From Isoetes taiwanensis (Eukaryota; Streptophyta; Lycopodiopsida; Isoetales; Isoetaceae), in NCBI GenBank assembly GCA_021234155.1, contig JAJEKV010000040.1:188001-252000 (forward strand): a stretch of 64,000 bases of DNA, in the 5' to 3' direction. A program made the translations under genes and the position numbers. Under the pieces are notes generated by a model. It was not told the origin of the DNA and did not search any database. It saw only the letters and a program-made list of their open reading frames with translations. Every line of letters begins with the position of its first letter. Positions within the stretch are counted from its first letter, which is position 1. Positions 6,559 to 36,640 of this stretch are shown piece after piece.

Positions 6559-6779
6559 ACAAGATTGCATATTAAACAGGAGCAAATCGTCGAAATGAGA
6601 GCAGAAGGAATATTCCTTAAAGATTCCTTTTTTTTTTTAAACAAAAAACGGGGGTAAAATGAGGTTATAAAAAAAAGGGTGCATGAAATTGTATTTTGAC
6701 CTCCCCAAATGACTAATTTTTTTATGCAACGGAATTGATTTTTTTTAAATGACACTTTTGGGCAAAAGTATGCTGGTTT

Positions 6780-7652
6780 GGGCAAAAGTATGCTGGTGGA
6801 CGCATGCTTTTAGCACCCCTCCTTCCGCTTTTTTTGGGTGCTGATGGGCGCATTTTTTTTACGCCCTAAGAGGATTCTTCGGTCAAGAATCATTCTTCAC
6901 AGCCGAATTTTCCATCAAATTAGCATCAATTTCTTCAGATTGGAGACTGACTTATGCGCAGAAATGATCCAAACTCCAAATTGGCATGTAAATCTCCAAT
7001 TAGTTGCTCAATCCATCAGATCTTTTCATAAAACTTTTCCAGCAAAGTAGGATTGTCATTTCGACCATATTCAGCCTAAAAGCCCCATCTACTTTAGCTT
7101 ACTTTGTGCTAATTTAAGATATTCTTCACTGTTTTACCAAAACTATTGCAAGATTGGCTTTTCTCTAATTATTCACTCAATATCCCAAATTGGGTTCTGA
7201 AATTTTGCATGTAGGGTCAAATTGCATGGTCGATTATGGAAATCTGAAAAGCCCCATCTGATTTTGCTTAATTCGTGTTGAATTAAAAAATTCTTCACTG
7301 TACCAAAACTGCTGCAGAAATCGTTTTTTCTAATTACTCACATAATATCCCAAATTAGGTCCTGAAATTTTGCATGTAGGATCAATTTACATGGCCGATT
7401 ATGGAAATCTGAAAAGCCCTATTTGATTTAGCTTAGTTTGGGCTGAATTAAGAAATTCTTCATTGTTTTACCAAAACTGATGCAGAAATGGATTTCTCTA
7501 ATTGCTCACTCAATATCCTAGATTAGGCCCTGAAATATTGCATGTGGGATCGAATTGCATGGCCGATTATGAGAAAAACAAAAGTGATGGAAACTGCTAG
7601 GTGCTTGGTGCGGCGTCGCGTTTTTTTATACCCCACCAGCATACTTTTGCCC
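6780..7652. mobile_element. Nested 873-bp non-autonomous DNA transposon with 20-bp perfect TIRs
   Basis: GGGCAAAAGTATGCTGGTGG at 6780-6799 is matched by its exact reverse complement at 7633-7652. A third, direct copy of the first 17 bases lies at 6760-6776 immediately before the left end. Comparison with copy 3 shows this block is absent there: sequence goes from 'tttatgcaac' almost directly to 'tttcttcaagtatgtttt'-like DNA. The flanks are T-rich (TTT/TTTT), so a 3-bp TSD is possible but ambiguous. The interior contains no ORF of note and is largely a 168-bp tandem repeat. PIF/Harbinger is one possible superfamily; this is not proven. Confidence 0.75.
7055..7570. repeat. 168-bp tandem repeat inside the nested TIR element
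   Basis: Three units are visible. The landmark 'ctgaaattttgcatgtagg' occurs at about 7195, 7363 and (as 'ctgaaatattgcatgtggg') 7530, and 'gaaaagcccca/ta' also recurs at the same spacing. No coding potential. Confidence 0.85.
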
Positions 7653-7779
7653 TTTTCCTTGCAAATAGAATTTTCTTCAAGTATGTTTTCAGAGAAAACC
7701 CCTGAAATTGTAGTATTCTCAAAATGTGAAGATAAACTCTTCATATTCACATGCAAAATTTACAGTCTTTTTCTAAGAT

Positions 7780-10700
7780 TCAGTTATGTACAAAAGTGTG
7801 AGAAGTGATGAAGGAGGGATCCAGCACGTCATCATGTTCATTTATGCCATCCTCATCATCTTCATTTCTTTCACTGTCACTCGAGGAAGTGCTTAAATTA
7901 TCTTCCTCATCACTATCAACAGATAGTGAAGCATTGCCACCACCACTCCTTTCTTCATCCTCTTCTTCGTAATTACAAGCCTTTTTAAGCAAATTGATAG
8001 TCCTCTGATGTAGACGATTGTCAGATTTCAATTTGAAATCATAGCACAATATAGTCACGTCACTTAGGTTCAGCTCATTCCTACAACCCACTTTCTTGGA
8101 CTTTCTTCCTTTTCCTTGACTTCTCATTTCTAACTCATACCTACCTTCAAAACTATTTTCTGAGCATGTTGCAAGCCAAATTAATCTTGCGTTTAGTGAC
8201 TAAGCCTTCCTCCTTGATTGTATCAAGTACTTTTGCTATCCAAAAAGGTCGACCTTTGTCATCCTCCTCAGTTGGAAGAGCAATCAGCATACCTTTGGCA
8301 ATTTCTGTGATATTACCTTGAGGCTCATTCCTGCGTCTTCGTACGAGGTACATGACTCGGTCCTCGTCTTCCTCTAGTGCAGGTGCTATTGTAGCATTGC
8401 TTGCTGGGGTTGATAGACGGTGTTAGGCCATTGAAATGGTTCTCGCAACTGTCTTAGAGCTAGGTTTTACATAACAATTTTCTGTTCAAGAAAGAAATTT
8501 CTCCACCACATCTGATCTTCTTCTAAGAAGTACTTAAAGCCTGAGGAAATTCCATTTTCAATGGCTTTTAAGGATGTCACTGGGTATTTTTCTTCTACTT
8601 GGACTCCTTAGAATTTTTTAGAGGAAGTTGCTCAGCAGGTTCTATGAAGCAAGTGTCTGGAATAGATTTAAGGAAACACAATTCCTCTGGTGGACTCCAG
8701 TCCTTAGTTGTGGTGTACTTCTTCCCCTGTAAGAAGCTTTGTCCATCCTTCAAGTAGAACTTGATATGATGTCAGATGAAATCATTCAACTTGTTCACAA
8801 CTTGTTCTCTATTTGGACATTGAGAGAAACCAAACTCTCTGAAGTCAGCAGTCTCTTTAAGAAGCTCAACTACTGGAATGGGAGTGTAAAAATCTTCAAT
8901 AATTCGAATTAAAGTAGGAAGACAAAAAGCCTTCTTTCGTCTAAGGCGCACGAAAAATCTGCTGAACATTTGGTCAATTTGATCATGGGTGTGGCCTACA
9001 AGTAAAAATTCGAGCTTTACTAAAGATCCCTAGCTCCACTAACATGGAAGAGTAAGCAAAGAGTGTTTAATTCTTGTTCTCCCTTGTAGTATTGTCAAGT
9101 TGTAGGTACTGGTGGTAATTGCTCGTGCTCGCATAGGACCTTGTTAAGAATTGTAATTGTGAGGTTCGAGTCACCGTACAAGTTTGGATACATCAAATAC
9201 TTTGCACTTTAGACTTCCTTTGAAGACCATAGCTCCTACAAGGTGGAGCTTAACAAAACATTCCTCTGGCACATCTTTAGGAATATTTAACAAATGGGGT
9301 AGAGTAGTTTTTTTATTTATCCATTCCATCAATTACAACAGACATATATTGCAGTGGACGTTCGGGAGCTTTTTTTCGGTGCTTGGCAACCTTTGTTCTC
9401 TCTGCTGCTTGTTCACAATATCTGGCAAGGTTCTGTTGCACATTACCTGTTGAAGAAATCAGGTCAAAATATTTCTTTAAACAAGTGAGAGAGAAGAGAA
9501 CTTGAGCTTACTTCTTTCGACCCTGTCTTTGCAGTTTCTCATTGACTCTTTAATTCCGCACACTTTGAGCAAACAGACATTCTATGTCTCCTGGAAATTT
9601 TCACAAGACCGAATTCACTTTTCCACAGTCTAGTGAAGTGTGAGTAAGACATGTGCTGAAACTGAATGCAAGTCTCTTTGTATTCATTGAAGACATCTTT
9701 TTTTGTGATGTTGTCTGTCAAATGATACATGTTGCTGTTAGACAATTTCTCACATGTTTCTCTAAAATGTTACTCCATCCATGACACAACAGCAAGGGTA
9801 TGCATTGTTACAACTCTTCTTGGTCCAACAATGATCATCAATTGCTGGGTTTTTATCCAGTCTTCTGTGTATTCGAGACATTCTGGTGGACCCTAAACGG
9901 TGGACAACCATAAAGCATTTTTGGCAGACTTGTTCACGGTTAATATAGTGCAAGAAGATGTTGCAGTCTGGTCTTACATGATAAGACAAGTAGGCATTCT
10001 GGTCTGCCAATGTCATTGAACTGTAGTTGTCTCTAACTGCTCGTAATTTAGACATGTTAAATTTGTTGATGCAACCCAATGAGCAGTATTTAGTTCTTAG
10101 AAGTCTCCTCATTTTGTGTTCGTCCATAAGATTTCTTCTTCTTATAGAGGAGCATGCTCTCGAACTAAAATCCACCTTGGATTTCTTGGAGGACTGGCTG
10201 GAGAATGTGTAATCTTGTTGCATCTCGTTGGTGTTTTTATCTTCTGATGAGAGTTCTACTCTAGGGGTGACCTCCTCTGCCCTTGTGGTATGCTTATAGA
10301 GGAAAATAAACCACGTGAAGCTGTACCCGGATAAGTCGGAGGCACAGTGTTGAATGGAGGAGATGGGCCATAAGATGTTGTGCCAGCAAATGTTGTTGCA
10401 GCTTCCTCACTAGGAGTTCGCTCAAATATGTCCATTACAGCTGACTGAAATCATGCAAACCCATGTGTCACTACGGTCGTGTGAAGAGGAGTAGATGCTG
10501 CGAGGTCATCTTCATTTGTAGTGAAGTCGTGGTGGAAGAAGCAGTGAAGAATCTCACAGTCTTTTGAGCGTCCGTGTTGCAGTCCTTGTTTGTCTAAGTG
10601 AAGAAGGAGAAACTACAAATAGTTGGGGTAGTATGTTCCCAAAACTTGCTGAGATTGAGCCTCTGTAGTTTCGTGGGATGGAACAAAAGGTGGTGGAAGA

Positions 10701-10942
10701 TTGTTACGTACAACTGATAAGGCAATGAAAGGAGGGAGCAGCCTGTTTCTTACTGGACTTGGAGAGGATTGGAAAGGTGGTGGTAGTCTACTAGTTACTG
10801 GAATCGGAGTGTCTTCGAGGAGCAACAAGGATCTCGTCGAGGTAGGAGTCGGAGAAGCATCTACGTCACGTATTCCATCTGAAGTAGAGGTACTAGAGGA
10901 AACAAAAGGTGGTGGAAGTTTGTTCACGATGCGGTTAACCAT
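7780..10942 (-). pseudogene. RNase H-fold (DDE-like) transposase-type gene, copy 1
   Basis: A decayed multi-exon gene, read from right to left. The N-terminal exon starts after a 'tttgcag' acceptor and encodes five [RK/N]LPPPF-type repeats in a Ser/Thr/Pro-rich region (about 10942-10613). Next comes a basic, Cys-rich block (10223-9762) with YCSLGCINKF and VCQKCFMVVHRLG, then SVCSKCAELKSQ (about 9560). The presumed catalytic core follows: VVIDGMD near 9340-9316, LDNTTRENKN near 9099-9067 and VGHTHDQIDQMFSRF near 8999-8955. After that are KGMLIALPTEEDDKGRPFWI (about 8290-8230) and an acidic tail ending HTFVHN (stop near 7780). This D/DN/H-x-H-D layout is found in large uncharacterised transposase-like families of plants and animals. 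In-frame stops and frameshifts interrupt the core. It probably mediated movement of the element. Confidence 0.72.
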
Positions 10943-11274
10943 CTTAAACAACTGCAAAACAATGGGGACATGTAAGTAACTCACTGGACAGTTGTGTAAT
11001 TGCTATTCGGGAATACAAAAAGCTATTCTGGAATATAGTTTGGTGTGATGCATTTGCTAAGTGAGTGCAGAAAACCTATTCTAGAATACACTAGTCTAGC
11101 CTGTCTGGACAAGTTATATTCCACTTTACATAGAAAAAGAGAGCGGACCATTGTCTATCTTTAGAAAGGAAAATTGAGCGCCTCAGTTGCGTATTCTGGT
11201 TTCACAGCTTTAGTCGCCAGACCGAGCGCCTTCTATTCTATTCAGAGTTGCTATAGGGTCACATAGAGAAAATC
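10943..11274. promoter_or_regulatory. Divergent promoter region of copy 1 with palindromic sites
   Basis: About 330 bp separate the first recognisable coding sequence of the transposase-type gene from the ATG of the ParB-type gene. It holds three variants of the element palindrome (11003-11016, 11023-11036 and 11076-11089) and a stretch (about 11178-11232) matching the same position in copy 3 ('gcgcctca..t...gtattc' through 'gtcgccag'). Its position between head-to-head genes implies shared control; no TATA box was assigned with confidence. Confidence 0.55.
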
Positions 11275-13653
11275 ATGGACAGGTAAGCATGTGAAGTACA
11301 TTGTACGGGTTTTAGATCTGTTAGATCCTATTTCTTATTCCAGAATAAGCATTTAGAACTATATGGTGGGCTAAAGTGTATTCCGGAATACACTTTGTAT
11401 AAAGACAAATGGCAAAGTCCGAAATAAGAATTTGTTAGCTATGGTAGATTTAGGCCTTAAGTTTGTTATTTTCTAGTCTTTAACAATCCCTTTCTAGTTA
11501 GTTTAGTGTCTTTCTGAAATACGTCTTTCTTTCTTTTTTTTACTCTTGACAGTGTTGTTTAAAACATTACTTTGCAGGCAAGAAGGAAGCAAGAGGGCAC
11601 CCAAGAAAGTGCTAAAGCTTGTCAAACGGCCACACCCACAGGGAAAGTCGCAGGACACTTAGGAGCCTGCAATTTACGAAAACTTTCAAACTCAGTGGTT
11701 TGTAACCAAAGGTGCAGGTAGAAAGTATAGCACATTGACATTTCTCCATGTTTACAAAAGCCCTGGACAAAAAACGCTACGACGACACCGAGTTCGTCAA
11801 CCTCGGAACAATCAAAGATGTTTCTGAGGTTGCCGGGCAAGATGGACAAGTGGGCAGGCTATCTTTTACGACATCCCAAGGCTTCATTGTGATTGACATT
11901 GCATTTTTTAGAATCGTCAGTGTGCAACCAGAAAACTTGTACGAGTATACCTCACATTACAGGAACAAACAAAGCTTCCATCATTAGGAAGGTTTGTTCT
12001 AGTCATAGCGAGGACTTTGTTGTTAACGAGTCCGAGCATGAGAAAGAAGAAAGTGGGTCTCCTGTTGCTAGCACTTCTGGGCAGGACAAGGAGGACGAAA
12101 GTTCACAGGAAGAGGAAGAGGATCACCACAAAGCTTAGCAGGCCAAGAGCCACTATAGTTGCTAAGGAACCCAAAAAAAAAAAAGGGTAGAGCAGCTTGA
12201 TATAGTGAAAGTCCTCGAGGAAACCAAAAAGAAAAGAAAAGAAAAAGGAAAAGCACCCGGGATTGCTATAAAGGAGAAGAAAGTGGATAAAACTTCCAAA
12301 AGAATGGGGGCAATAAACAGAGAGAAGTTTTTACAAGGGGTCATATATCTTCCAGTAACTTGCATGAGGCTACCCCCTAAAAATGAAGCTGGTGAAAGGC
12401 CACTTCAGGTTCGAAAAATCTACGCAGACCATTTGAGGAACTTGAAAGACAGAATAAGGAGCAATCCAAATGCTCATGTGGCCCCAATTGTTGTCCTTCT
12501 TGACATGGAGCAGTGCACAGACCCCCAAGACTATGGCAGAGAAAATGCAGATACCTACACACATTATGTCTTGGGAGGTAATCACAGCTTTAACTACAAA
12601 GAAAAAAAGAACCAAAGGTACCTTTCTGTCCTGTGTGTTGTTTACTGTGGTCTTACCGATGAAGAAGCGAAGATCATTGCCAACACCCACAATGCTGACA
12701 ACGAGTACAAATTGAAGATGAGCTTCGTCGACAAGATCAGGTTCATGCACAGAGAATATGTTATTTTCAAGGAAAAGTACGGTGAGGACCTAAAGAAGCC
12801 AGCGTACTCCTTGGAGCTTAAGGAGGCGTGCGCCATTGAATGCTGCCTAAAATATGATGAAGCTAACAAAAGGCAGTCACTCATTGGCCATGACAACTGG
12901 TTCCAGTTGGCATTCAGAGATAGCAAGGTATGCATGATCCATATTCCGAAATAAGAAATCGTGCTAAAGTTTTTTTTAGCTTTTTCGTGTTTGATTTTAC
13001 TGGTCCACAAAGTGACATACAATTTTCCTGAACAGATATGGGAACTCCAGAATGAAATATTCACTATGTTCGAACGTGGGGAGTTGAAGAGCAAAGGCAA
13101 GGAGACAGCCAAGAAGAAAACCTCCGACGTGCCGAAGAAAGAAATGACAATTATCATCTGGATGGAAATGCAGGGCTTTTCCGACACCGAGTTATTAGAA
13201 CGGCTGCTTTAGAAGGTTGTCGACAAGGAGTTTACCCTTGAAGAAATGTCCAAGGAATTGCACAAATAAGTTCTCCGTTAAGATTAATGATGTGACAATT
13301 GTAGATCTAGTAGCAGCGGTGTATTCTGGAATACATTATGCTGTGCTGTTGTGTAAATTTTGTATTCTAGAATACACATGATGTAGTGTAGTCCAACAGT
13401 GTCTACAATATTCTTTAGTAATTTGTATTCCAGAACACGTTCATGTCTTCGAGCAGAAGAAGCTTTTAAAACTTCAAATTTGTGTTTCAGAACACTCACT
13501 CACTCACACGACCAAACAAAACAGTATTCCGGAATACACAATCATTTCCTTGAAGCAGCACATTTCTTTTCAAGATAGCAACTCCGGGGAGCAGTTGTGT
13601 ATTCCGGAATACAACTTGCTTTACTGTGAAAGCATGCGTGTATTCCAGAATGC
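11003..13653. repeat. Dispersed 14-bp palindromes GTATTCCGGAATAC in copy 1
   Basis: Sites: 11003 (CGGG core), 11023 (CTGG), 11076 (CTAG), 11334 (CCAG), 11378 (CCGG), 13321 (CTGG), 13362 (CTAG), 13425 (CCAG), 13482 (TCAG), 13524 (CCGG), 13599 (CCGG) and 13640 (CCAG). All lie in the promoter region, intron 1, or the DNA after exon 3 where copy 3 has its next intron. None lies in recognised exons. Outer bases are mostly GTATT...AATAC; most changes are in the central CpG. Confidence 0.9.
11275..13268 (+). pseudogene. ParB-domain gene, copy 1 (methyltransferase part missing)
   Basis: Exon 1 is tiny: ATG GAC AG at 11275-11282, then GTAAGC, the same design as copy 3. Exon 2 (11578-12927) holds the conserved block EPAIYENFQTQWFVTKGAG...RYDDTEFVNLG, an acidic/Lys-rich linker, and a ParB/sulfiredoxin-like domain (about 12415-12720) with IYADHLRNLKDRI, HVAPIVVLLD, YVLGGNHSFN and LTDEEAKIIANTHNAD. 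Exon 3 (13036-13268) encodes IWELQNEIFTMFERGEL up to KELHK. Defects: TAG near 11657, a 1-nt frameshift near 11765, TAG near 12136, TAG at 13210-13212 (CAG in copy 3), and a lost splice donor after KELHK (AAATAAG for AAGTAAG). No methyltransferase exons follow before the (AAT)n array. Confidence 0.72.
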
Positions 13654-13799
13654 ATTTGTGGCTTGTTGTATTTTTCTTATTTCCTAACACAGTATTTTCT
13701 TATTTCTTTGGCGTATCCTACTTGATCATTTCAAGGAATTCTTATCAAATTGTTTCTCTTGTGATGTGGTGCATGCGAAGTGATGTACAAAATTATTAA

Positions 13800-13820
13800 A
13801 AAAAAAACAAAAAATAAATA

Positions 13821-13914
<94 letters not shown>

Positions 13915-16977: not shown

Positions 16978-17014
16978 GATGTTTGAGCCAAGGGTGGCAT
17001 GTTTGAGCCACAAT

Positions 17015-17080
17015 AAAGTTTAAAATGAAACGACTTATTTCTTTTGAAACGACTTCAAAAGGAATCTTTGAAAGATTCCT
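17015..17080. repeat. Left terminal inverted repeat of copy 2
   Basis: GTTTAAAATGAAACG plus neighbouring bases (17015-17040) pair with 25551-25576. 'aggaatctttgaaagattcct' at 17060-17080 is itself almost a perfect palindrome, and a similar 'aaggaatattccttaaagattcct' occurs at the left ends of copies 1 and 3 (about 6607 and 28806). Confidence 0.75.
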
Positions 17081-17454
17081 AAAATTCCCTTTTAAAAAAG
17101 TCCATTTTAAGATTTTTTGTGACAGTGTGACAATTTAAGTAATTTAGGTACCATTTTGAGGGGTTGATTGAACATAACTTTTCATGCAAAAATTTCAAAT
17201 AGCAATTTTCATCCTCCTAAACTAGAACAAAAATAATTACTTTTATAAAGTGTAGCAAAAAAAGGGCAATTAAAAATAGCAAAGGGTAATAGAGTGACAA
17301 AGAAGTGATATATTCATGGTTGTGAAAAATTGTACAAAATTATGAACAAAATTGTCAAAAATATAGAACATTTTTGACGGCAAATCATCACCGCTCTTTT
17401 CGCTTTTTTTTACATGTTTGAGTCATCGGACAAACTTACATTTTGTGCAAGATC

Positions 17455-20400
17455 GAGGATGCATCTCATCCTCCGACTCATTTAATCCCCACGATCACTT
17501 GAGCCTTCATCCTCGGCTTCACTCTCAAACCGGATGTACTTAAGCGATCTTCTTCCTCATCGTCTACAAGTGAGTCCTCATCATCATCTTTTTTGGCCAC
17601 CTTTCTAGGTTGTTTGTCTAATCCACTTGACCTTATTAAAGTTTGGTGACCATCGTAACTTATTAGCGGAAATGTACAAAGTCATATGCAAGAACCTTTC
17701 ACGTGATAGATCTATGGCAAAGTATTTTGCTTTGGACTTTGCTCTCTTTCCCTCTCTGTTTTTACCATCTCCAAAGTATAACTCCCCATCGAAAAGCCCC
17801 GGCAAAGATTTGTTCTCATCCGGTGCACTTTTAGTTGAGTGGGAATTCCATCCCTCTTGTTACCTCCGGTATTTTAGCTAGCGTAAGCGGCTTCCCGGAC
17901 TCATCATTATCGGTTGGGACAGCTATGAGCATTCCTTTTACGAATCTCGAGATCGAACCGGATACTCGAAAGCAACTTGTTGTGTTTGTGCGTCTGGGGG
18001 CGATGTACATGACTCTGTCATCTTCATCCGAAGCTAGCCAATATCTCTACATGTTCCTCTTGATTATCAACTTGCACAGGGAGAGTTTGCCTAGATGGCC
18101 AGTTGAATGTGGCGGTCTTCGACCTTGTAATGAAGCTTGCAAAATATCACGTTGTCGAGAAAAAACCGGGGCCACCATAAAGCATCCGCCTCCCAAAGTG
18201 GTTAGGAAAACGACCGAATACTTGTCTCAATAAAATCCAATGATTTGCTTGAGTCAAATGCTCTTCCCCTTTTTTACTCTTTGTGATTTCTTTCAAGCTT
18301 TTTAGAGGCATTTGCTTTCTCTGAGAGAGCATGGAACTAGTATTGGGGATGGTGCGAATGAATTGAATACTGGCGGCCGCCATACGCAAAGATGTGGCAT
18401 ATTTCTTTCCTTGTAAGATGGCCCTGCCATCTACAAGTGAAATTTTGATCGATCTTTGAAATGTAATATTTCTCAAGGGCTCAGCTAGCGGTGACCCAGT
18501 TGATCTCTTGAAAAATCCATTCTTTGAAATCATAAGTTTCTTCCAACAACTCGATGTCCGGGGCGAGGATTGCCAGGAATCTTGGATAATCTCAATCATT
18601 GCTGGTAGGTTGAGAGCTTTTTAGATTGCAAGGCGTTTAGAGAACCTACTGAACATCCGATCAATTTGGTGGGTATATGACCAACAAGCTGGTGAAACCA
18701 ATCTTCACCTTCTTGAAGATTTGTTTCTCTACTAGCATAGCATGTAAGCAAACAACGATTCTTATTTTCCCTTGTCGTGTTGTCTAGTGAAGATACTGAA
18801 CCCGGTGGTATATGTTCTAGATTGGAAAGAAGCTTATTCAATATTGTGATAGTGAGATTTGGATCAGCATGAATGTTTGGATAATTCAAAAATGCCTTGC
18901 AAGATAGTTTTCCATTAAATACCATAGCACCAACAACATGCAGGATGTATGAAATCTTCTTCAGAAACATCCTTAGGCACATTGACAAAATGTGGTAGGG
19001 TGGTCTTCTTCTGGTCCATTCCATCAATAACAAACATCGAAGTTGAGTGGTTGTTCGGTCTTTCTTCCTATGTTTTGTCAATTTTCTCCTTTCCAAAGAT
19101 TGTTGTTCTCAGGTTTGTTCGATTTCTCCTTCAATGCATCCGAAATGAAAATATGTTTAGGAAAAAACCTACTTTTAAGTAGAACTAGGCAAGAACACGC
19201 CCCGAAGCTTACTTTTTAGTGTGAAGTGTCCTTGCATTTTGTCTCTCGAAGCTTTTAATTGAGCATGTAGCACAAACAGACATCCTATGCTTTCTAGGAA
19301 TGGCCACGCTGAGAAAACTCTTTTTCCGTGAGCACGCGAAAGTAAGAGTAGCGCATAAAGCGTTCTCCAAATTTCAACACACATCTCCTTATAATTATCA
19401 GAGACTTCTTGTTTCGTGGAAATTGTCACTCAAGTGGTACATAGGGCTATTAGGGAGTTTCTCACAAGACTCTTAAAGAAACCTTCCATCGGGAGACACA
19501 TTGAAGGGCATGAATTCCGGTTATGCCTCCCGAATGGCGAGTCATTAATGCCCGGATTCTTGTCAAGCCTTTTCTTTAGGGCGGTCAAGTCGTCTGTAAA
19601 GCATGAATCAATTTGAAGGCCGTTTGACAGACGGTGTGGCCACCATTTGTGTAAGTAAACTTTCACCATCATCCGCCTAATATTGAAGGCTAAGTAGCCC
19701 CTTTGGTCTAGCGAGTCATTGAACCGTGAACTATCACGAATCAACCTCAATTCCTTTAGTCCAATCTTAAGCAAACAACGTTGAGAACAACGATTGATGC
19801 TGTATGTGTTGCCCGCAAGTGAGCCCTGAATCCATGAGTTTCTTTCTTCTGGTTGTACATGCTTTCTTGTGTAAGTTACGCTTTAAGATTCTTACTTGCG
19901 GGGGGCTTTGAATTCGAACATAGAGTCTTGTGGCTTTGGTAGGTCCTCGCGTCTAAGACATCAACATGAGGTGTTTCTTCGTCTAAGAGATCAACTTGAG
20001 GTGTACTTGTAGATGCTGATGATAGGTTTGGTGTGTGCAAGTCCCGAGGAGAGGCTTTCCCTCTCCCTAGGAAAAAGTAATCGAGGTTGGTGGCGAGTTG
20101 ACCAGCTCCTAAGTGTAAGAAAAATGGGGGGTTGCATGTTGACTTGCTCCCACTTGTTGTAGTACCATTTAGCGAAATTGATGGAGTTGGCGTGATTTGC
20201 CTCAGGGGATTTAGCTATGGTGGACTAAGGGCGACGTGCTAAAATGAAGTGGAGGAGGTAGTCTGGACCTCTAGGGCGTGGTGGAGTAAAACGCATTGGT
20301 GGGGGCAAACGGCACGCTCGTGAGGGTGTGGTGGGATGAACCCGGGTGGTGGAAGCCGTGCGTCCGAGTAAGATCAACACTTATGAGCTGGGGGTTTGAA

Positions 20401-20524
20401 TATCCGCAGGCGTAATTTCCGAGGCTACTTGTGTGTCAGTTGAGGGGTGTGAGAATGTCATCGCGAGGAGGGAAGCCCCGCGAACAGGGAGTTGGAGGCT
20501 CTCGCAGTTCTTTTTCCGAGCCAT
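17455..20524 (-). pseudogene. RNase H-fold (DDE-like) transposase-type gene, copy 2
   Basis: Probable start MARKKNCESL at 20524. An N-terminal low-complexity region includes CRLPPPMRFTPP (about 20310-20275), the diverged counterpart of the LPPPF repeats. Later blocks match copy 1: a Cys-rich/basic region (19774-19430) with LRLIRDSSRFNDSLDQRGYL and LDKNPGINDS; MDGMDQKKTTLPHFVNVP (about 19030-18975); VGAMVFNGKLSC; DPNLTITILNKLL; LDNTTRENKNRCLLTCYA (about 18790-18735); a VGH..HQIDRMFSRF block (about 18690-18640) broken by a small deletion; KGMLIAVPTDNDESGKP (about 17930-17880); and an acidic tail ending near 17455. Compared with copy 1 the catalytic-type residues D, D-N and the QIDRMFSRF block are kept, but frameshifts separate them. 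Confidence 0.7.
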
Positions 20525-20898
20525 ACCGAAAGGTAGCGTCAAATCGTATAAATTTATACGACCGTAATAGCAGACGGTAAAATTTATTAGGGATGGTATA
20601 AATTTATCTGAGAAGGCAAACTTGTAAATTGCCGAATCGTATAAATTTATATAGATGGTATAAATTTATACAGAGGAGAAGACACTGTGATAAATTTATA
20701 CGAAAACTCCGCGTAACACTTGTATTGGAATCTTTATGGAGAAACGCTATACCTAAACGGCAGACTTAGCAGGGGTACTTAAGCGGGCCTGGCCAATTCT
20801 ATTTTCCATATGCGGCTAGAGTAGGAGTCGGCCGCCGGTCCGCCTTTATATACCCTCTTATTTGCTCTCCGGAACCTCTATCGCTAGTTCATACGGTC
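20525..20898. promoter_or_regulatory. Divergent promoter region of copy 2 with palindrome cluster
   Basis: 374 bp lie between the two start codons. Five GTATAAATTTATAC-type sites (20546, 20596, 20639, 20658 and 20687) occupy its left half. A possible TATA-like 'tttatataccctc' near 20846-20858 precedes the ParB-type gene start by about 45 bp. The palindromes sit where operators controlling both genes would be expected. Confidence 0.5.
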
Positions 20899-23800: not shown

Positions 23801-25107
23801 TTTTTGTACATATGAGAGATTTACCACATTTGGTCGGGGCGCCCAATACTGAGGGTTGTTGAGGGTGATTGTACAAAGGTGGGGACTCTTTTAAACAAGC
23901 AACATTTTACATTATGCATTGCAGATATTCATATGGATTTAAAATAAAGGATAGCTTTTTGATGAGGAGGCTTTCACCACGTGCAAGTCCGGTCTTTCCT
24001 GGATGGCCTCAAAGAAGTCACGACATCCCCGAAAACCTGAGGGTCATCATTTTCATTCGACCTTTGGATGATGTCGGTGCTTAAACCTATGGGAGCGTCC
24101 TGTAACGCCGCTTCGAAAACAGCTAGCGTTTGGTAAGCTTCACAATTAACGCTTTTTGTTTTTCACGGTAACTCCACGGTATAAATTTATACCACATCGT
24201 CTTAAGGTTTAAATTTTAAAGGTTTGGAACAAACCGTGGTATAAATTTATCTGACAAGGCAATGTGCAGATAAATTTATACTGGCTTGTAGATGGTATAA
24301 ATTTATACACAAGGCAACCGTGGTATAAGTTTATACCGGCCACACCTTTTGGGCTAACTTATTTTCCTTGTTTTTTTTTTTTACTAATTTCTAATTTCTA
24401 TATTGCTTGGCGGGGCTTAAAACAAACGTCAAGGGTCATGGTGGTGGTCCGCGCTTAGTGAGCTGTTTCGAGCATTTTCATATAGGTTTTACGGCGGACG
24501 CCAAAAAAACCATGGTTCATTTTAACACGCTAATGAAAAAGACTCCTCCCCGCAATGCATTTCGGTTCAATTTGCTTTTGCGTAATTAAGAGACCCACAG
24601 CGACAAGGCGCTGTGGTGTCCCATTATCAGAAGCCACAGCGGCTTATTAATAATTTGATACAGTGGTTTTCTCGGCCTCGAGACTGGATCCTAGATGCCT
24701 TTTCCGGATCGAGCACCGGCCCGGTTTCGCCCTTAAGCGGGGCGCAATGTCAAATCTCCGTCGACATAGACCCGGATAAAGTAAGCTTCATCGGGACCGG
24801 GATAAGCTCTTGCGAATCCTTTCCTGATGAAAACGAGGAACTGGGAGCAAAGAACGGTGCCAACATGATGCTAAGGGCACTTACACGTAAATACTGACCT
24901 CCACTTATAGTTATAGGAAGAAGAGATGAGGAGGTGGAGTTTGTTGACTTGGAGCCTGTGGTGCCCGAGCCAGAGAAACCGCCTGTGCCAATAGGTTTGG
25001 AATCAGAAGGAGGCGTCTTAGCTGTTGTAAGCTCGCAAGAGCCAGATCTCAAAGGGTACGAGAGTCCTGTGGACTGGGAAGAGCCACCTCTCGTATAAAT
25101 TTATCGC
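20546..25107. repeat. Dispersed 14-bp palindromes GTATAAATTTATAC in copy 2 (about 26 sites)
   Basis: Clusters: promoter (20546, 20596, 20639, 20658, 20687), intron 1 (20976, 21009, 21039, 21057, 21091, 21127, 21157), intron 2 (21790), a middle intron (22941, 22970, 22995, 23020, 23049, 23079, 23106), a late intron (24179, 24239, 24268, 24295, 24323) and the stop codon region (25093). Many extend to 16-18 bp as CGGTAT...ATACCG. None was found in recognised exons or in the transposase-type gene. Confidence 0.93.
20899..25098 (+). pseudogene. ParB-domain DNA methyltransferase gene, copy 2
   Basis: Exon 1 is ATG CGG CCA C (20899-20908) followed by GTAAGT. Exon 2 (about 21430-21764) encodes IMHLYLCNKSREG...VHDYISDNYKNGF. 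Exon 3 starts at 21835 and runs into a (GAGGAA)n acidic/GR repeat. The ParB-like domain (about 22340-22700) reads MRRNPHAHVSPLVVMVDRSQC, then GGTHGYKA in another frame, then MSLIDKIRFMHREYVEFK. The next exon (about 23188-23427) encodes WDLQERIFCMFEDGELK. The methyltransferase half has motif IV DI(P)YGF at about 23923-23940 with one base missing, and motif I DAFSGSSTG (24694-24717), altered from DAFSGSGTT. The tail is acidic and stops at 25096-25098. Several frameshifts; not functional as it stands. Confidence 0.72.
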
Positions 25108-25519
25108 ATGAGCGAGTTCTTAACCACTTTCATTGTAAACTATGTGCTAAGTAATATTATAATTTATTTTTGATGAAGATTTTTAAACCGAAAAGCTTTG
25201 TCTCTCTAACAATGCTTAATTGAAACAACTCTTTCTTGCTCCAGGATTTCACACTCTTTGTCTTTCCAATGTTTGACTTTTTTAGTACTTCTATTAAGCT
25301 TGCAAAAAAACAATCTATATTTTCTTCTGTTTTTAACAATAAATACTTACTGAAGTTATCAAAGTTAATGTCTCTCCTTAAAACAAGCATTTTTTTTTTG
25401 CCCTTCTTTTAAAATGAAAAAGCTTTAAAAATGTTGCTTTTTTAGGGGTATCCCGAATGCTAATTGCTCAACAATCTATTTTGCTCCCTATTTTGTGTGT
25501 TTTTTTAAGTTTTCAATTT

Positions 25520-25576
25520 TTATAAAGGAATCTTTCAAACACACTTCTTAAATAAGTGCGTTTCATTTTAAACCTT
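25520..25576. repeat. Right terminal inverted repeat of copy 2
   Basis: Reverse complement of the left end: 'cgtttcattttaaac' near 25559-25573 with 'aataagtg' just inside, then 'aaggaatctttc' near 25525. After the repeat come 11-12 unrelated bases and the direct-repeat flank ATGTTTGATCC (about 25589). Confidence 0.75.
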
Positions 25577-25589
25577 GTTCCACGTGTCA

Positions 25590-28755: not shown

Positions 28756-29136
28756 AACAATTGCGTATTAAATGGGAGCAGATCATCGAAACGGGAGTAA
28801 AAAGAATATTCCTTAAAGATTCCCCTTTTTTTTTACAAAAAAAGGGATAAAATGAGGTAAAAAAAGGGGTGCATAAAATTGTATTTTGACCCCTCCCCTC
28901 CCCCCCAAATGACTAATTTCTTTATGCAACAAGAAAATTGGCTTTGTGAAAGTGACTGTTTTTTATGCAACTAGATTTTTTCTGAAGTATGTTTTTAAAG
29001 AGAACCTCTAATGTAAAAGAATACAACATTTAACAAAAGATTGAAGTGAAGTCTGTAACTGGAATTGTAGTATTTTCAAAATTTGAAGATAAAATTTTCA
29101 TATTCGCATGCAAAATTTATAGTCTTTTTCTACGAC

Positions 29137-29910
29137 TCAGTTATGTGCAAAGGTGTGAGGAGTGATGAGGGAGGGATCTAGCATGTCATCATATTCATTT
29201 ATTCCATCCTCATCTCTGCCTTCAAGGTGTGCTTGAAGAGGAAAAAAAACCACGTGAAGTTGTACCCGAATATATCGGAGGCACAGTGTTAAATGTTGGT
29301 GAAGGACCATAAGAAGTTGTAGCAGCAGTTGTTGTAGCATCATGATGAGGAGTTCTTGCAAACATCTCCCTCACAGCGGACTAAAACTTTGCAAATCCAT
29401 GGGTCACAACGGTTGTATGAAGAGGAGTAGATGTTGTAAAATCATCTTCATTTGTAATGAAGTCTTGATGGGAGAAGTTATGAGGAATCTCGCATTCTTC
29501 TGATCGTAGTGTAGTCCTTGTCTGTCTACTTGAAGCAGGGGAAACTACAAATGGTGTGGGTAATCTGTTATGCAAAATCTGTTGATGTGGAGCATGTGTA
29601 GTTTCGGGCGACACAACAAAAGGTAGTGGAAGCTTGTTTTGTACGAGTGGTGATGGAATAAATGGTGGGGGCAATCTGTACCTAACTGGGCTTGGTGACG
29701 GTTCGAAAGGGGGTGGCAGTCTGTTAGTTGCTGGACTAGGAGTGTCATCGAGAAGCAAGAGAGACGTTGTTGAGGTTGGAGTTGGAGAAGCTTGAGCATC
29801 AGCATTTTGTTCTACAGCTCCATCCGATTAAGAGGAACTAGAGACAATAAATGGTGGTGGAAGATTGTTCATATTGCGTTTAAACATCTTCAACAACTGC
29901 AAAGAGCAAG
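29137..29910 (-). pseudogene. Transposase-type gene, copy 3, internally deleted
   Basis: The N-terminal exon after a 'ctttgcag' acceptor encodes MNNLPPPFIVSS (about 29880), then RLPPPFEPSPSPVRYRLPPP, NKLPLPF and NRLPTPF repeats (29758-29550), followed by SEECEIPHNFSHQDFITNED (about 29500-29440). The chain then jumps to GRDEDGINEYDDMLDPSLIT (about 29215-29150), which in copy 1 is the extreme C-terminus. The Cys-rich block and the whole D/DN/GHTH core, about 2 kb in copy 1, are missing. The copy cannot encode a transposase and would depend on another. Confidence 0.7.
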
Positions 29911-30029
29911 ATAACGTGAGGAAATATCGAGAAGAAGTTAGATTCCGTTGGACCTTGCTATTCGAAAATGCACGCCATGCACGAAGAAGAAGTATGTGGA
30001 AACAAAATGAGACAGAAGGAAACAAAATG

Positions 30030-31429
30030 CTATTCCAGAATAGACAGCAAACGGCAATATACAGAATCTGTATTCCACTACACATAGAATTGGTGAAGGG
30101 AATATGTGCAACTTTTAAACGAAAATTTTAGCGCCTCACTTTTGTATTCCGTTTCAGCAGCTCGAGTCGCCAGCGCCCTCGAATATATTAATATATTGCT
30201 GTATTCCGATTCGCAAAGACAAAATCATGGACAGGTGAGTCTGAAAGTACAGTGTACGTTCTTTTTTGCTTTTTAACTAAAAGATAGTGTATTCCGGAAT
30301 ACACTTCTCTCTTTCTAGAGAGGCAAAAGTGTATTCTAGAATACATTTCTTCTTCTCTGAAGAGGCAAAAGTGTTTTCCGGAATACACCTTCGCCTTCAG
30401 TTAAAACGAAAGTGTATTCCGGAATACACTTCGTTTTAACTTAGGTGTATGTCGCTTTTCTGGCCGAGGTGTATTCCTCGAATACACCCCGCTTCTTAAA
30501 CGCGAAAGTGTGTTCCGGAATACACTTTAGCGAAAGGCGAAAGTGTATTCCAGAATACACTTTCGCCTCTTCAGAGAGGAAGATGTGTATTCTGGAATAT
30601 AGTTGCTCTACTTTAAAGCTTGAGAAGTGTATTCTAGAATACATTTTTTGGTGATTTTTGATATTTTCATCGCACTTTAGACTTGTTTAGCCATGTTTTG
30701 TAGTCAAATCTCAAGACTTTTATTAGCCTTTTGGTCCCGTGTTGGCATGACATTTGGATCTTTTGTGTTCTGGAATAGTCTTTTTGCTTGTGTTTTGGCT
30801 AAAAAAGACGTGTTAAACACATGGTTTGTACAGGCAAACAGCAAGAAAGCACAGAAGAAGCCAATGAAAATGACTCAGAAGGCACATCCACAGAGAAGGG
30901 TAGACGACACCTCTGCACCTGCAATCTACGAGAACTTTCAAAGCAGTGGTTCTTCACAAGGGGTACAGCTCGAAAGTACAGCACCCTTACGTTTTTACAT
31001 GTTTGTCGCAGTCCTGGTGCAAAAAGATACGATGACAGAGAGTTTGTCTGCATGGGCCCCATACATGATGTGAGTGAGATAGCAGGGGAGTCTGGACAAT
31101 GAGGGAGACTCTCCTTTACGACATCCCAAGGTTTCATACAGGTTGATGAGTCCTTTTTTAAACTTGTCAAAGTGTAATCACCGGCACTTTACAAATATAT
31201 CTCCCACTACATCAACAAGAGAAAGCTCGGTGCCATTATAAGCTGGGTTTGAAGCACACAGAGCGAAGACTTTGCTTACAGTGAATCAGAGAGGGAAGAA
31301 GAGGAAGAACAAAGGAGCTTGGGTAGTCCATCAGGAGAGGAAGAGGATGAGAAAAGCACAGAAGGGTCAGAAGAGCACCAAGCACCACCTCCAAAGAAGC
31401 AGAGGCTGACTATTGCTGCTAAAGAGCCC

Positions 31430-31461
<32 letters not shown>

Positions 31462-33622
31462 AATTGCCATAGAAGATGCTCCTGAGGAAGTTCCCAAGAA
31501 GAGAAAAGGGGAAGGGCAAGGCACCTGGAGTTGCAATCAAGGAATAAAAGGTAGACAAAACTTCAGAGAAGATGGAAGAAATTAACCTGCACAAGTTTGT
31601 GCAATATGTCATCTATTTGCTTGTCACATCAATGAAGCTTCCACCTAAAAATGAAGCTGGAGAACGTCCGATTTACGCGGATCATTTGCGGAAGCTGAAG
31701 AATAGAATTCGGAGCAATCCCAATGCCCATGTTGCTCCAATTGTGGTTCTGGTTGATAGGAAGCAGTGCACAAACCCAGCCGAGTATGATAGGAAAAATG
31801 CGGACACATATACGCATTATATTTTGGGTGGGAACCACAGTTTCAAGGCAAGGAGGCAGTTGTATAAAGAAAAAAAGAATCCTAGCTACTTCTCTGTTCT
31901 CTGTGCAATCTACTGTGGGTTGACTGATGAAGAAGCCAAAATTGTTGACAATACGCATAACGCTGACAACGAATACAAGTTAAAAATGAGCTTCGTGGAT
32001 AAAATCAGATTCATGCACAGAGAATACGTCATCTTGAAAGACAAGTATGGGGAGGATTTGAAGAAGCCTCAATATTCACTTGAACTAAAAGAAGCTTGTG
32101 CCATTGAGTGTTGCCTGAAGTACGACGAGGCGAACAAAAGGGCATCACTCATTGGTCACGACAATTGGTTTCAGCTAGCATTCAGGGATGGCCGGGTACG
32201 TCTCCAACATATTCTAGAATATGATTTCGTGTACTGCAACCTTCTTTGTAGAAAACTAGCTAACGAGAATCTTGTTTTGTTTGCAGATCTGGGAACTTCA
32301 GAATGAAATATTTAATATGTTTGAGCATGGCGAACTAAAAAGCAAAGGCAAAGTTTTCAAGAAAAAGAAAGGCTCTGATGTGCCAAAGAAAGAAATGACT
32401 ATCATTGTCTGGAGGGAGATGCAGGGCTTCACTGATATAGATTTGTTGGAACGGCTCCTGCAGAAGGTCGTGGACAAAGAGTTCACTCTCGAAGAAATGT
32501 CGAAGGAGTTGCACAAGTAAGCGTTGCCATCATTGATTTCTTTTCTACCTGACAAACAAGAGATGTACTATTCCAGAATAGTACCCGTTTTAAAACAACT
32601 GCATATGGGTACTCCAAAAAACACTTTTGCCCTTCAAGTGGATCGAAAGTGTAGAATACACTTTCGCCCTCGATGAAGTGGAAAAGTGTATTCCGAAATA
32701 CACTTTCGCTCCTACGCAGCAGCTAAAGTGTATTTCAGAATACACTTCTGCAATTAATAAAAAATTAAGTTTAAGCCACTTGTATTCAAGAATACATTTT
32801 TTTCACAAGAAGTTGGTTGATTTTTTACCGTTGTGGTTGCCAACTTCTAAAACGTTTAAGGTTTTCTTCTCAGCCAAAAAAACGTCATCATATGCGAGAC
32901 TTGTTTGATGGAGCAACTTAACGTGGAGAAATGGGAGAGGTGCAAAGAACTTTATTCCATTGCTACATCAGATGAGCGTATTGTTCAGTACGCTCCAAAT
33001 TTCGAAGGATGGGTACGCTGACTAAACTTGTGACTCTTGTTTTATTTAGGTACTAAATTTTCCTTCTGATTGCAGAACAAGAAGAAAAATAAGGACCTTC
33101 CAGAAGGTTTTATGCACCTCGTGAGGTTGGCACGAGAGGAAAGAACATTGGCAGATAAAAGGACTCTAGAAGTGGAGCCTTCTGATTATGAAAAGTTCAG
33201 CTTGTACGATCAGAACAATTTGTTTTCTATCATCCACGGGGACTGCACTAAACTGGTTGGAACAGTAAAGCCACAGGATTTTACACTGGTCATGGACCTT
33301 CCTTATGGCTTTAACCTAAAGGATTGCCGTTACGACGATCAGCCATTCAAAAATTCAATTTTTCAATGCCTTCGTCGACGGTATTAAACAAATCACAACG
33401 ACTAAGCATTGGCTTGTCATGTTTCATTCCAGCATGCAAGCCGGCCTTGTGGAGTCCACGTTCAAGAATCATTTTGGATCCCCAGTGCAAGCAGGTTACG
33501 AGAAATGGTTTGGTAAGTATTTTATGTTGGAATACGTTAGCTTTTTCTTTGCATATGTTGATTTGTTCTTCAAGTTCCTTACATATTCATCTTTTGTGTT
33601 TTCGTTTTCTATTCCAGAATAT
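30030..33622. repeat. Dispersed 14-bp palindromes GTATTCCGGAATAC in copy 3
   Basis: Promoter: 30030 (CCAG core). Intron 1: 30289 (CCGG), 30331 (CTAG), 30373 (CCGG), 30414 (CCGG), 30471 (a CCTCG 15-mer), 30509 (CCGG), 30544 (CCAG), 30587 (CTGG), 30629 (CTAG). ParB-exon intron: 32209 (CTAG). Next intron: 32568 (CCAG), 32688 (CCGA), 32730 (TCAG), 32782 (CAAG). Late intron: 33609 (CCAG). In intron 1 most sites sit in a longer frame of the type 'gcgaaAGTGTATTCCGGAATACACTttcgc', with spacing of 30-45 bp. Confidence 0.93.
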
Positions 33623-34350
33623 GATTCTTTTCGACTTATTTTCTTTGTTGGTTTCTTGTTTTGTTTTCGTTAGTGACTCGACTTTTATTTCTATAGGTAC
33701 AAGACGAATATAAACTACCATGGTGGCGGGCCGAGGTTGTTGAGCAAGGTTGAATACCTCCATGTTGCTTACTGGAGTTTCGATGGGAAACGCACCATGG
33801 AGCATTTTAATACAGCAGCTTGCCAGAACTTTTCCAATGTCTTGGAATTTCCAGCAGTGCTTCAGAAGCTACAAGACCCATAGTTAATCACTACCAGAAG
33901 CCTCAAAAGCTAATCAACCATCTCCTAGACATGTTTTCACGTCTAGGAGATTGGGTGCTTGATGCCTTTTCTGGCTCTGGTACAACAATAGCTTGTGCAT
34001 TTAAGAAGGGCCACAATTGTGTAGAAGTGGACATAGATAAAGAAGCTGTGAACTTCATCAAGATGAGATTGGTTGCCTTACCTACCCTACCAGATGAGCA
34101 TCAAGAGTTAGGCGCCAGATCCTCATCCGATTTTGCCAAGCTGACCTCTTCAGAGATACAGCCTCCATTCACTAGCTCTTTAGATGATGAAGCTACCTTT
34201 GCAGAGCTGAAAGAAGTGGCTCTAGTTACTATTCCTGAAGACATTGTAGAAGTAGACAAGGCTAAGTCACCACAAAAGGAGCAGACCACAGAAATTGACA
34301 CAGCAGAGACAAGCAAAAGCAATGAAGAAGATTGCGAATTGGACCTTTAA
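30227..34350 (+). pseudogene. ParB-domain DNA N4/N6 methyltransferase gene, copy 3 (near-complete)
   Basis: Inferred exons: 30227-30234 (ATG GAC AG), 30842 to 32195, 32287-32516, 32874-33012, 33076-33512, and about 33700-34350, mostly with GT/AG borders. Order: basic N-terminus; SAPAIYENFQ block; KRYDDREFVCMG...GRLSFTTSQGF block; acidic linker with poly-Lys; ParB/sulfiredoxin-like domain (about 31672-31980: IYADHLRKLKNRI, HVAPIVVLVD, YILGGNHSF); a conserved helical region to KELHK; then a beta-type methyltransferase with FSIIHGDCTKL, motif IV DLPYGF (33295-33312), HYQKPQKLINHLL and motif I DAFSGSGTT (33961-33987). The C-terminus is acidic (EEDCELDL). Defects: a frameshift near 30950, TGA at about 31100, TAA at about 31177, a frameshift at the poly(A) run (31432-31458), and frameshifts near 33355 and 33870. 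Sequencing indels cannot be excluded. Confidence 0.78.
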
Positions 34351-36640
34351 TCTGTCTCATGCAAAAATATTTATTACTCACCTTCATGTGTTGTCGAAAT
34401 TGATGTTAATGAAATACTTTAATTATATAATGATTATTTTATTTAGGTCCGAGCAATCGCCACAGCGATTACCATTAAAAGATAGACAATTTTCTCCAAA
34501 AGATTGCTTATGCGATATGTTGGAGCTGGTTCTGGTTTTAAAGCTAGGCTAAAAACATAAGTTACTAGCTGCTCATTCAAGCTAGATCACAGCTATGATT
34601 GCCTCTAGCTGAGGGGCATCCTATTTCTGGTTAGCAAGATCGCAGCTGTAATTTGATCCAGCTCACGATCTTTATGGACAGATTGAGACCAATCAAGCAG
34701 AGGGTAGGGTCTAACAAATGGTTATTCTCTACATCTAAATCCAATAAAAAGGCCCTATACAACTTCCAAAGAAACAAAAGCCACCAACAGTAAGCAGCAC
34801 TAGTCATCTATTGAAGCTTTCTGAACAATTTAAACGTAAGGAGGAAGCATCTGAAAAGCGTGAACTCACCTTTACAAAAATCTTCTGGATGAATCGAGAA
34901 GAATGCCCAAGCGCCTGAGGAAATATATTGAGCGCCTAAAGAGAAATGCCCGAGCACTTGAGCGCCTGAGAAGATGGCCTGTGAAACGCCAAAGAAGAAT
35001 GTTGTAGGAGCACCTGCTTGATCAAGAATGGATCTAATGCCACATTCAAATTTCCCAAGTGCAAAATTTGAATTGTGCCAATACCTTGGCTGCCCTGAGA
35101 TATGTTGGTACAAGATTGTCTTGTACTCCACGATCTTTTCTGGTTTGCCGATTTGAATTTTTTTGAAAAAGTCATAATTAGTATTCAAAAGTGGATCATC
35201 ATTTCAAATTTGAATTTGAGGCGTACTGCATACTTCGGCTGGAAATCGTTACCTTCTTTTTTTGGAGACTAGCATCAGCGCAAAGTTTTCTGCCGGAAAT
35301 GTCTAGGCGCTTTTTGGTCAAACAATTATTTGTTGACGCATGCGCCTCTATTAAAGGCAGTTGCCTATATATAAGACCTATTCAAGAGATAGTGAGTGCC
35401 TCACCAACTCCACGATGCCTAATCGACTACATGAGCATCAAACTGATACAGATTTCACGAGCACCTGCCCATACCAGGTCCCAATGGCGCTAGGAAAAAA
35501 CACACGAAAAAGTTATGTTTCTTCTTTTTTCTTTTGTTAGTAGCTTAAAGCTTAGTTTGTAGCTGGCCGCTCCGTGTTTGAGCTCTGAAGGATCGCCATG
35601 GCGATTCTTCTGAATTCACCTCTGAAGTACCAAATAATCTTGCGCTATTTCACTGGCTCAAAAGGATCGCACTAGCGATTCTTCTGAATTCAGATAAGTG
35701 ATTTATTTCATTATTCAAGTCCACATGGAGATTGAGCTTGGACATCCTTTGCATTGTAGCAGGATTCATTAGAATCGTCTTTGCGTTTCTTCTAAGCTTG
35801 TTTAGGTTGTGCCTGAAATTATCCAAAACTTTCAGCCATCTATAATTAATGTGTCGACCGTATTTATGACATGTACATGCCATTATGGAGCATTAATTGC
35901 GACGCTTGTGTTAATGGCACTGGCGGCCCTGCCCACTTGAGCAACTTTGCCTGCATAGCATCCAGGCTGGTACTTTCCCATTGGCAAGATGCTGTAAGCC
36001 CTGGTCCACGTCTGCCTCCATGATTTCCAGCACTGAGCCTTCTTGCAGGGTAAAGCTACTTGTGCACCATAAGGATCGTATAGCTGCCGCAAGTATTGCC
36101 CCCACTGCTTAGGAGTGATGTTCCTTGAGATTGTACTGGCTTTCTGAGCACCCTTCACTAAAAGGTCCTGGGATGACGTTCAGAAGGTAGAACATTTTCC
36201 TTTGATGCATGCCTAGTTTTCTTAGCTTTAAGGAAAATGTGGCACTGTCTGACCACTTATGGGCGTAGAGCAAGGCCTGTGACCTGGCAAAAATAGCATT
36301 TGTGTTCCTTGCACTCCGCATCAAACCATTGATTATAAGGGAAGGTTGTTGTGACATTTCCCTAAAATATACGATATAAATACGTATATTTTGGACCACG
36401 TCACCATACAAGCCTACATTAGTAGCCTTGTATACCTTAGTGTGGAGAAGGGAGTATGGCTAAATCATTATATATAACTTAGCCAACCTTAGGTAGGGAA
36501 CCATTTCCACATGGCTCCATCCTATTAGAAACCCACGACATGGACGCATCCTATTGGAGCCACATGGCATGTCGTGGCAACCCTAATGTAGTAATGGCCA
36601 AACCCTAACCCTAGGCCATTTTCCGACTCCTATCGTCTTG
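34351..36640. other. Non-coding/decayed sequence right of copy 3
   Basis: Contains two 27-bp-like repeats of 'gatcgc-NNNN-gcgattcttctgaattca' (about 35590 and 35664), a related 'aatcgccacagcgatt' at 34449, a run of CTCAGGCGCT motifs on the minus strand (about 34905-34975), and a TATA-like 'gcctatatataag' near 35365. Minus-strand frames at 35883-36411 (for example KQWGQYLRQLYDPYGAQV) look like a very decayed retroelement pre-RT region, but I cannot confirm it. The minus-strand LINE relic starts near 36640. Confidence 0.35.

Follow-up and report, generated by a model that had tools for sequence, protein, structure and literature searches.

What are three divergent gene pairs, each joining a transposase-type gene to a gene for a ParB-like protein and, in two cases, a bacterial-type DNA methyltransferase, doing in a plant genome, and what in their layout could tell how they worked? 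They lie in a stretch of 64,000 nucleotides from Isoetes taiwanensis (assembly GCA_021234155.1, contig JAJEKV010000040.1, positions 188,001 to 252,000 of the forward strand), here called the window, from whose first nucleotide all positions are counted. The original prediction, made from the letters alone, had placed three copies of one mobile element within 28 kb. Reading both strands, we confirmed three head-to-head two-gene elements there, A, B and C, in each of which a minus-strand and a plus-strand gene diverge from a common promoter. We report here that they fall into two families, and that each family carries a private palindrome, repeated in its own non-coding DNA. This is a new observation, and it bears directly on whether the second protein could have recognized and marked the element that encodes it.

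The predicted extent, 6564..34560, was right as to place and not as to limits, as A starts at 6558 and the last exon of C ends at 34350. The elements run as follows (a strand is given where a feature has one):

6558 to about 13800: element copy A, family 1; the alignment of A with C starts at 6558/28756
17012..25579: element copy B, 8568 bp in length; it belongs to family 2, and its ends form an imperfect terminal inverted repeat
28756 to about 34400: element copy C, also of family 1; the value 34400, just beyond the last exon, is guessed

Judged by their sequences, A and C are one family, with DNA identities of 72–77% in the coding parts compared and 66–73% in introns and promoter. B represents a second family, distant from the first, and its relationship to A and C shows in the proteins. 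None of the three copies is intact: each contains stops or frameshifts.

The palindrome of family 1 is GTATTCYRGAATAC and that of family 2 is GTATAAATTTATAC. Matches were counted with up to two mismatches over the whole window. Of the 27 matches to GTATTCYRGAATAC, 11 lie inside A and 16 inside C; the 25 matches to GTATAAATTTATAC are all inside B:

11003..11391: five palindromes of A, of which the divergent promoter holds three and intron 1 the other two
13321..13653: six palindromes of A, beyond the last exon, at a place equal to intron 3 of C
20546..25106: 25 palindromes GTATAAATTTATAC of B, five in the promoter, seven in intron 1, one in intron 2, six in intron 3, five in intron 6 and one at the stop codon
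30030..33622: 16 palindromes GTATTCYRGAATAC of C, one in the promoter, nine in intron 1, one in intron 2, four in intron 3 and one in intron 5

We rejected chance AT-rich sequence as their source, as 30 dinucleotide shuffles for each motif gave at most 4 matches for family 1 (mean 0.73) and 3 for family 2 (mean 0.47), against the 27 and 25 observed. In addition, a count of dispersed 10-mers in each element, blind to palindromes, put words of the motif in first place in B and C; in A these words tied with AAT-repeat words. Allowing three mismatches added no match to the family 2 motif; at four, background swamped both motifs (91 and 68 matches).

On the ParB side of the elements, exons take up about 56% of the sequence in A and about 63% in both B and C, and 51 of the 52 sites nevertheless fall outside the proposed exons, the remaining one, in B, straddling the stop codon. 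The transposase side has none (0/52). Terminal transposase sites were likewise considered and rejected, since all 52 keep a distance of about 470 bp or more from the four known ends (the left ends of A and C and both ends of B).

The sites are regularly spaced in part: 6 of the 15 gaps between sites in C measure 41–42 bp, and 12 of the 24 in B measure 25–33 bp. Some lie in arrays detected by Tandem Repeats Finder (C 30286–30432, period 42; B 22970–23033, period 25). The sites are probably not independent, some having been made by local duplication, and we therefore give no combined P value. Longer hairpins were rejected as the common unit: outside the core, the arms can pair in some sites of C but do not do so consistently in B, for which reason we regard the core palindrome as the common feature. 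The centres of the 27 family 1 sites read CG (8), CA (8), TA (5), TG (4), GG (1) and AA (1), a variation between C and T and between G and A that is no more than suggestive of CpG decay. Separately, at 30286–30640 of C several family 1 palindromes are set inside longer imperfect hairpins whose arms vary from site to site.

The plus-strand genes, in whose introns most of these sites lie, were read as follows:

11275..13268, plus strand: ParB-like gene of A; proposed exons 11275–11282, 11578–12927 and 13036–13268
20899..25096, plus strand: ParB-like and methyltransferase gene of B, broken; seven proposed exons, 20899–20908, 21396–21763, 21835–22862, 23190–23426, 23497–23623, 23690–24130 and 24409–25096
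30227..34350, plus strand: ParB-like and methyltransferase gene of C, broken; proposed exons 30227–30234, 30834–32195, 32287–32516, 32874–33012, 33076–33511 and 33697–34350

The tiny first exon that had been predicted for this gene is present, with 8 bases in A and C and 10 bases in B. The gene of A has a stop within exon 2, frame changes and no methyltransferase exons; A appears to be cut after the palindrome zone, behind exon 3 and ahead of where the methyltransferase exons would begin. Ahead of the ParB-like part, C (30834–31250) and B (21396–21763), both on the plus strand, have another stretch that by eye seems conserved; the piece from C has no Pfam match.

As predicted, two of the copies encode a methyltransferase: B and C match, and no match was found in A. 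The hand-joined methyltransferase of C matched PF01555 with an E value (E) of 6.7e-14 (52.8 bits, cut-off 26.7), and so did the unaltered last open reading frame of C (33811–34350; E = 2.7e-13, 50.9 bits). The parts from C and B share 39% identity over 113 amino acids (E = 6e-23). Motif IV of C, DLPYG, lies at 33295..33309 on the plus strand, and motif I, DAFSGSGT, follows downstream in exon 6; motif IV before motif I is the order of the beta-type amino-methyltransferases. A search of solved sequences, with E up to 1, returned 11 distinct entries, led by the adenine-specific MboIIA (3.2e-5), with CcrM second, a putative methylase third, RsrI fourth and fifth and two cytosine-N4 entries last (E about 0.7). 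CcrM and RsrI we take to be adenine enzymes. Adenine-N6 enzymes have DPPY and most bacterial cytosine-N4 enzymes SPPY at this motif (PMC8885841; this and the other articles are cited for the parts of their text that were available). Since DLPY begins with Asp, as DPPY does, the methyltransferase is more likely a beta-type DNA amino-methyltransferase specific for adenine-N6 than one for cytosine-N4.

A ParB-like domain in the same gene, predicted as a ParB/sulfiredoxin-like domain with the signature GGNHS, is weakly supported by sequence comparison. The signature stands in A and C and reads GGTHG in B (hand-joined), so that the arginine of the ParB box is replaced by Ser (A, C) or Gly (B). The ParB-like parts of B and C share 28% identity (E = 9e-15). 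DUF6551 matched A at E = 0.034–0.049 and gave no match for C or B, and among PHROGs the part from C matched a single family, one without a known function (E = 0.014 and 0.0075). Against plasmids, with E up to 10, three records were returned, the best an ATP-binding protein (E = 3) and the others ParB family proteins (E = 7 and 9). No match was found among solved structures, nor among phage records (tblastn, E up to 1). In genome contigs, none of 64 pattern matches was confirmed as a ParB-like part, and in viral contigs no relative of the ParB-like part, the methyltransferase or the transposase was confirmed; both searches required short exact peptides and would have missed distant relatives. 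The arginine in box II (the P motif) that marks a clamp dependent on nucleoside triphosphate is absent here.

The minus-strand genes are of the transposase type and were read as follows:

7780..10942, minus strand: transposase-type gene of A with DUF7869 (Pfam, hand-joined reading), several stops and frameshifts
about 17480..20530, minus strand: transposase-type gene of B, broken, extent approximate, DUF7869 in the open reading frame 18596–19108
29059..29887, minus strand: remnant of the transposase gene of C, from self-alignment and sequence, start near 29887

The gene of A has its start codon near 10942 and its last stop at 7780, and contains LPPPF repeats, a Cys-rich block, DGMD, LDNTTRENKN, VGHTHDQIDQMFSRF and an acidic tail. 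Its reading, hand-joined across the breaks, matched DUF7869 at E = 3.2e-32 (112.1 bits, cut-off 26), and the unaltered open reading frame of B did so at E = 9.6e-10 (38.8 bits). The claim that all three copies carry the same transposase-type gene thus holds for A and B; C has an internal deletion equivalent to about 7861–10275 of A, which holds the DUF7869 core, and keeps a remnant without it. Against solved structures (PDB) the DUF7869 protein gave a single match, by chance (E = 1), and a literature search on DUF7869 and on the core peptides found nothing. In the transposase tail of A, at about 8200–8370 (minus strand), the stretch GMLIALPTEEDDKGRPFWIAKVLD looks by eye like a domain of the chromatin-reader type, with no Pfam match. 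A tandem repeat of period 165 in three copies occupies 7078–7576 near the left end of A, and the part of C that aligns there has no room for it.

The termini were read directly from the sequence and by alignment:

from 6558: left terminus of A, AACAAGATTGC..., from the A/C alignment
17008..17011: possible target-site duplication CCAC left of B; 4 bp alone is weak
17012..17099: left terminal inverted repeat of B, gapped, tip AATAAAGTTTAAAATGAAACG, complementary to the right end at 20 of 25 tip bases
25501..25579: right terminal inverted repeat of B, gapped, tip (reverse complement) AACAAGGTTTAAAATGAAACG
25580..25583: possible target-site duplication CCAC right of B, read directly

The left terminus of A and C starts with AACAA, resembling the right tip of B. 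The right ends of A and C were searched for and not found, no convincing inverted match to the left end being present in A. The terminal inverted repeat and the possible CCAC duplication speak for B as a mobile element, and for A and C the corresponding evidence is confined to left ends; the copies look like the predicted mobile element with a divergent gene pair. Together, these features support the view that the copies are decayed DNA transposons, two families of one kind, and not duplicated host genes. That two host genes were simply copied by segmental duplication, with no transposon involved, would suit three copies within 28 kb, and we give it next to no credence: B has its terminal inverted repeat and possible target-site duplication, B and A/C are distant families and not recent duplicates, and a similar gene pair occurs within a Sola1 transposon of Ectocarpus.

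Since all copies are fossils, their function has to be inferred from layout. The original prediction had the second protein bind element DNA and mark it; the palindromes supply this idea with family-specific sites in the element's own non-coding DNA, and the binding and the methylation themselves are what we infer. In the model that we favour, the ParB-like part, probably as a dimer, given that the site is a palindrome, would bind the palindromes of its own family. The methyltransferase would thereby be concentrated on the promoter and gene of that family, and the methyl mark might block host silencing or tune transposase expression and transposition. Family-specific palindromes would let the protein act in trans on its own copies and spare the rest of the genome. 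We cast the ParB-methyltransferase as the reader because it is, besides the transposase, the sole recognized protein of the element, and because the sites surround its gene and the shared promoter. The model gains strength from the fact that each family has a palindrome of its own, kept within that family's non-coding DNA. To a transposon of two families whose ParB-methyltransferase recognizes the palindromes and marks its own family, with binding, methylation and control of silencing or transposition argued from sequence and layout, we give an even chance. More tentatively, the arrangement may be a self-recognition code, in which a family-private palindrome, multiplied in promoter and introns of the family's own genes, is read and a bacterial-type mark, probably N6-methyladenine (6mA), is written there, serving escape from silencing or copy counting, with the specificities of protein and palindrome switching together in a manner convergent with the VANC proteins of Arabidopsis transposons.

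Several findings weigh against this model. The exon borders on which the placement of the sites depends were read by eye from GT..AG. At three mismatches, the family 1 motif rises from 27 to 39 matches; six of the additional ones fall beyond the elements, and another is exonic, in C. A has palindromes yet no methyltransferase, which was probably lost by truncation. The PDB matches of the methyltransferase cover the motif I end and not motif IV, and do not settle adenine against cytosine. As to the ParB-like part, TIGR03764 (the ParB of integrative and conjugative elements) matched C at E = 0.002 and neither A nor B, and a profile comparison with eight phage ParB-methyltransferases placed GGNHS on their AGHGR signature, with Ser facing Arg, at a probability of only 1.3%. 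A structure prediction, suggested as a check of the original claim, was run on this part from two sequences with AlphaFold (AF2), and its predicted local distance difference test score (pLDDT) of 35.6 made the model unusable. Moreover, no clamp dependent on cytidine triphosphate (CTP) is to be expected, because the ParB box arginine is Ser or Gly here. Finally, only two families were compared, so that the joint divergence of protein and palindrome rests on n = 2.

Other readings of the palindromes can be set against the same distribution of sites. They might be bound by the DUF7869 transposase or by the Cys-rich domain of that protein, and act as an operator or enhancer in autoregulation or in transpososome assembly, with the ParB-methyltransferase acting elsewhere. 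Family-specific sites are normal for transposases, and 9 of the 52 lie in the promoter common to both genes. Transposase sites are usually terminal or subterminal, and here both the known ends and the transposase side are empty of them, while 36 of the 52 are in introns of the other gene; we consider this explanation unlikely. It seems improbable to a similar degree that the methyltransferase serves to gate transposition and not to counter silencing, methylation of promoter and ends coupling transposition to replication or limiting copy number. Dam gates Tn10/IS10 transposition in this way in bacteria, and a bacterial-type amino-methyltransferase with sites in the shared promoter fits such a scheme, which is at odds with known termini devoid of sites and with the lack, among the recognized proteins of these elements, of a reader of hemimethylated DNA. 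Host transcription factors might also bind the palindromes, with family 1 sites being heat-shock-like and the element stress-induced: the family 1 core, TTCYRGAA, has the form TTCnnGAA, which we take to resemble a heat-shock element. These sites are single, the closest two being 20 bp apart, and not contiguous nGAAn units; 17 of the 27 are intronic, and in family 2 comparable positions are occupied by an unrelated palindrome, all of which makes a host factor distinctly improbable.

The remainder of the window holds other repeats and a plant-type gene. To the left of A, direct repeats of about 840 bp (424–1267 and 4671–5508, 96% identical) are probably the long terminal repeats (LTRs) of a young LTR retrotransposon, and a reverse transcriptase fragment (5735–6328, minus strand; PF00078, 3e-11) lies between that element and A. 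Between B and C, 25689–28629 contains internal direct repeats (26890–27483 and 28034–28623, 83%). Further to the right are a long open frame for a pentatricopeptide repeat (PPR) protein, typical of plants (41536–43551, minus strand; PF13041, 1e-58), and a pair of direct repeats, 53499–53682 and 57748–57931, 97% identical, possibly short LTRs. Scanning the window for Rfam families and for tRNA genes gave no hits.

If the model is true, plants host transposons that use bacterial-type parts both to recognize and to set their own epigenetic identity, which would bear on a targeted role of 6mA or N4-methylcytosine (4mC) in plants and on the repeated evolution of family-private anti-silencing by transposons. 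The elements had been thought not to belong to an established class. This does not hold, as the Ectocarpus transposon Sola1-1_Ec32 carries an opposite-strand ParB-methyltransferase gene, and green and red algal cases are also in print (Dinatale et al. 2025, PMC12477816, citing Iyer 2011 and Petroll 2025). Like Sola1-1_Ec32, the elements described here are transposons with an opposite-strand gene for a ParB-like part and an N4C/N6A methyltransferase, and the role put forward is the same, binding and modification of the element's own sequence by its accessory proteins (PMC12477816). They share with Sola1-1-type elements the combination of a transposase gene and an opposite-strand ParB-like/methyltransferase gene, with the ParB-like call weak: the plus gene has both parts in B and C and the ParB-like part alone in A, and the transposase of C is a remnant. 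Sola1-1_Ec32 differs in being a Sola1 element of 21.5 kb from a brown alga, whereas the present elements come from a plant, have a DUF7869 transposase-type gene, form two families and measure 8.6 kb in the case of B. Family-specific palindromes are present here and are not mentioned for Sola1-1_Ec32 in the available part of PMC12477816. Among the matches listed in a search of open-licence literature (subscription papers lay outside its scope), no such element was described as carrying DUF7869, as occurring in a land plant or as having family-specific palindromes.

Prokaryotic relatives resemble the plus-strand protein part by part. Phage fusions of a ParB-like domain with an N6_N4 methyltransferase have the same domain order and PF01555 (PMC12704722), and the methyltransferase shares 22–27% identity with phage records in the best 20 of 140 matches. 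The phage proteins are prokaryotic and the arginine is invariant in the eight aligned, unlike the Ser or Gly found here; this arginine of the ParB box is required for nucleotide binding (PMC12704722). Bacterial ParB-parS likewise combines a ParB-like domain with clustered palindromic sites. It is unlike the present elements, in which no ParA was recognized, the nucleotide-binding arginine is absent, the sites are specific to a transposon family and the setting is a eukaryotic nucleus. The bdelloid N4CMT is, as here, a bacterial amino-methyltransferase in a eukaryote that acts on transposons, but it is a host gene with a chromodomain and SPPY (4mC), linked to transposon silencing (PMC8885841), whereas the enzyme described here is transposon-encoded and has DLPY.

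In function, the nearest precedent for the model, with a like layout built from different parts, is offered by VANDAL21 and VANDAL6 of Arabidopsis with their VANC proteins, where an accessory gene is likewise accompanied by short family-specific motifs that are repeated in non-coding parts and differ between related families. VANC21 binds YAGTATTAY in introns and in intergenic and terminal non-coding regions, with the motifs arranged as tandem repeats, and the motifs of VANC6 are different; each protein brings about a loss of DNA methylation over its own family (PMC5735166, PMC10398659). The main text of PMC5735166 does not contain the word palindrome. Binding of VANC to VANDAL has been shown (PMC5735166, PMC10398659), whereas binding to the palindromes here is our proposal. 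The Pfam families present in the two genes of our elements are DUF7869 and the methyltransferase. To our knowledge, VANC is not known as a ParB protein or a methyltransferase. The elements may work like VANC/VANDAL in anti-silencing but with a bacterial-type writer. Their class is already published for algae; the palindrome code is new, and it makes the published idea that accessory proteins bind and modify their own transposon directly testable.

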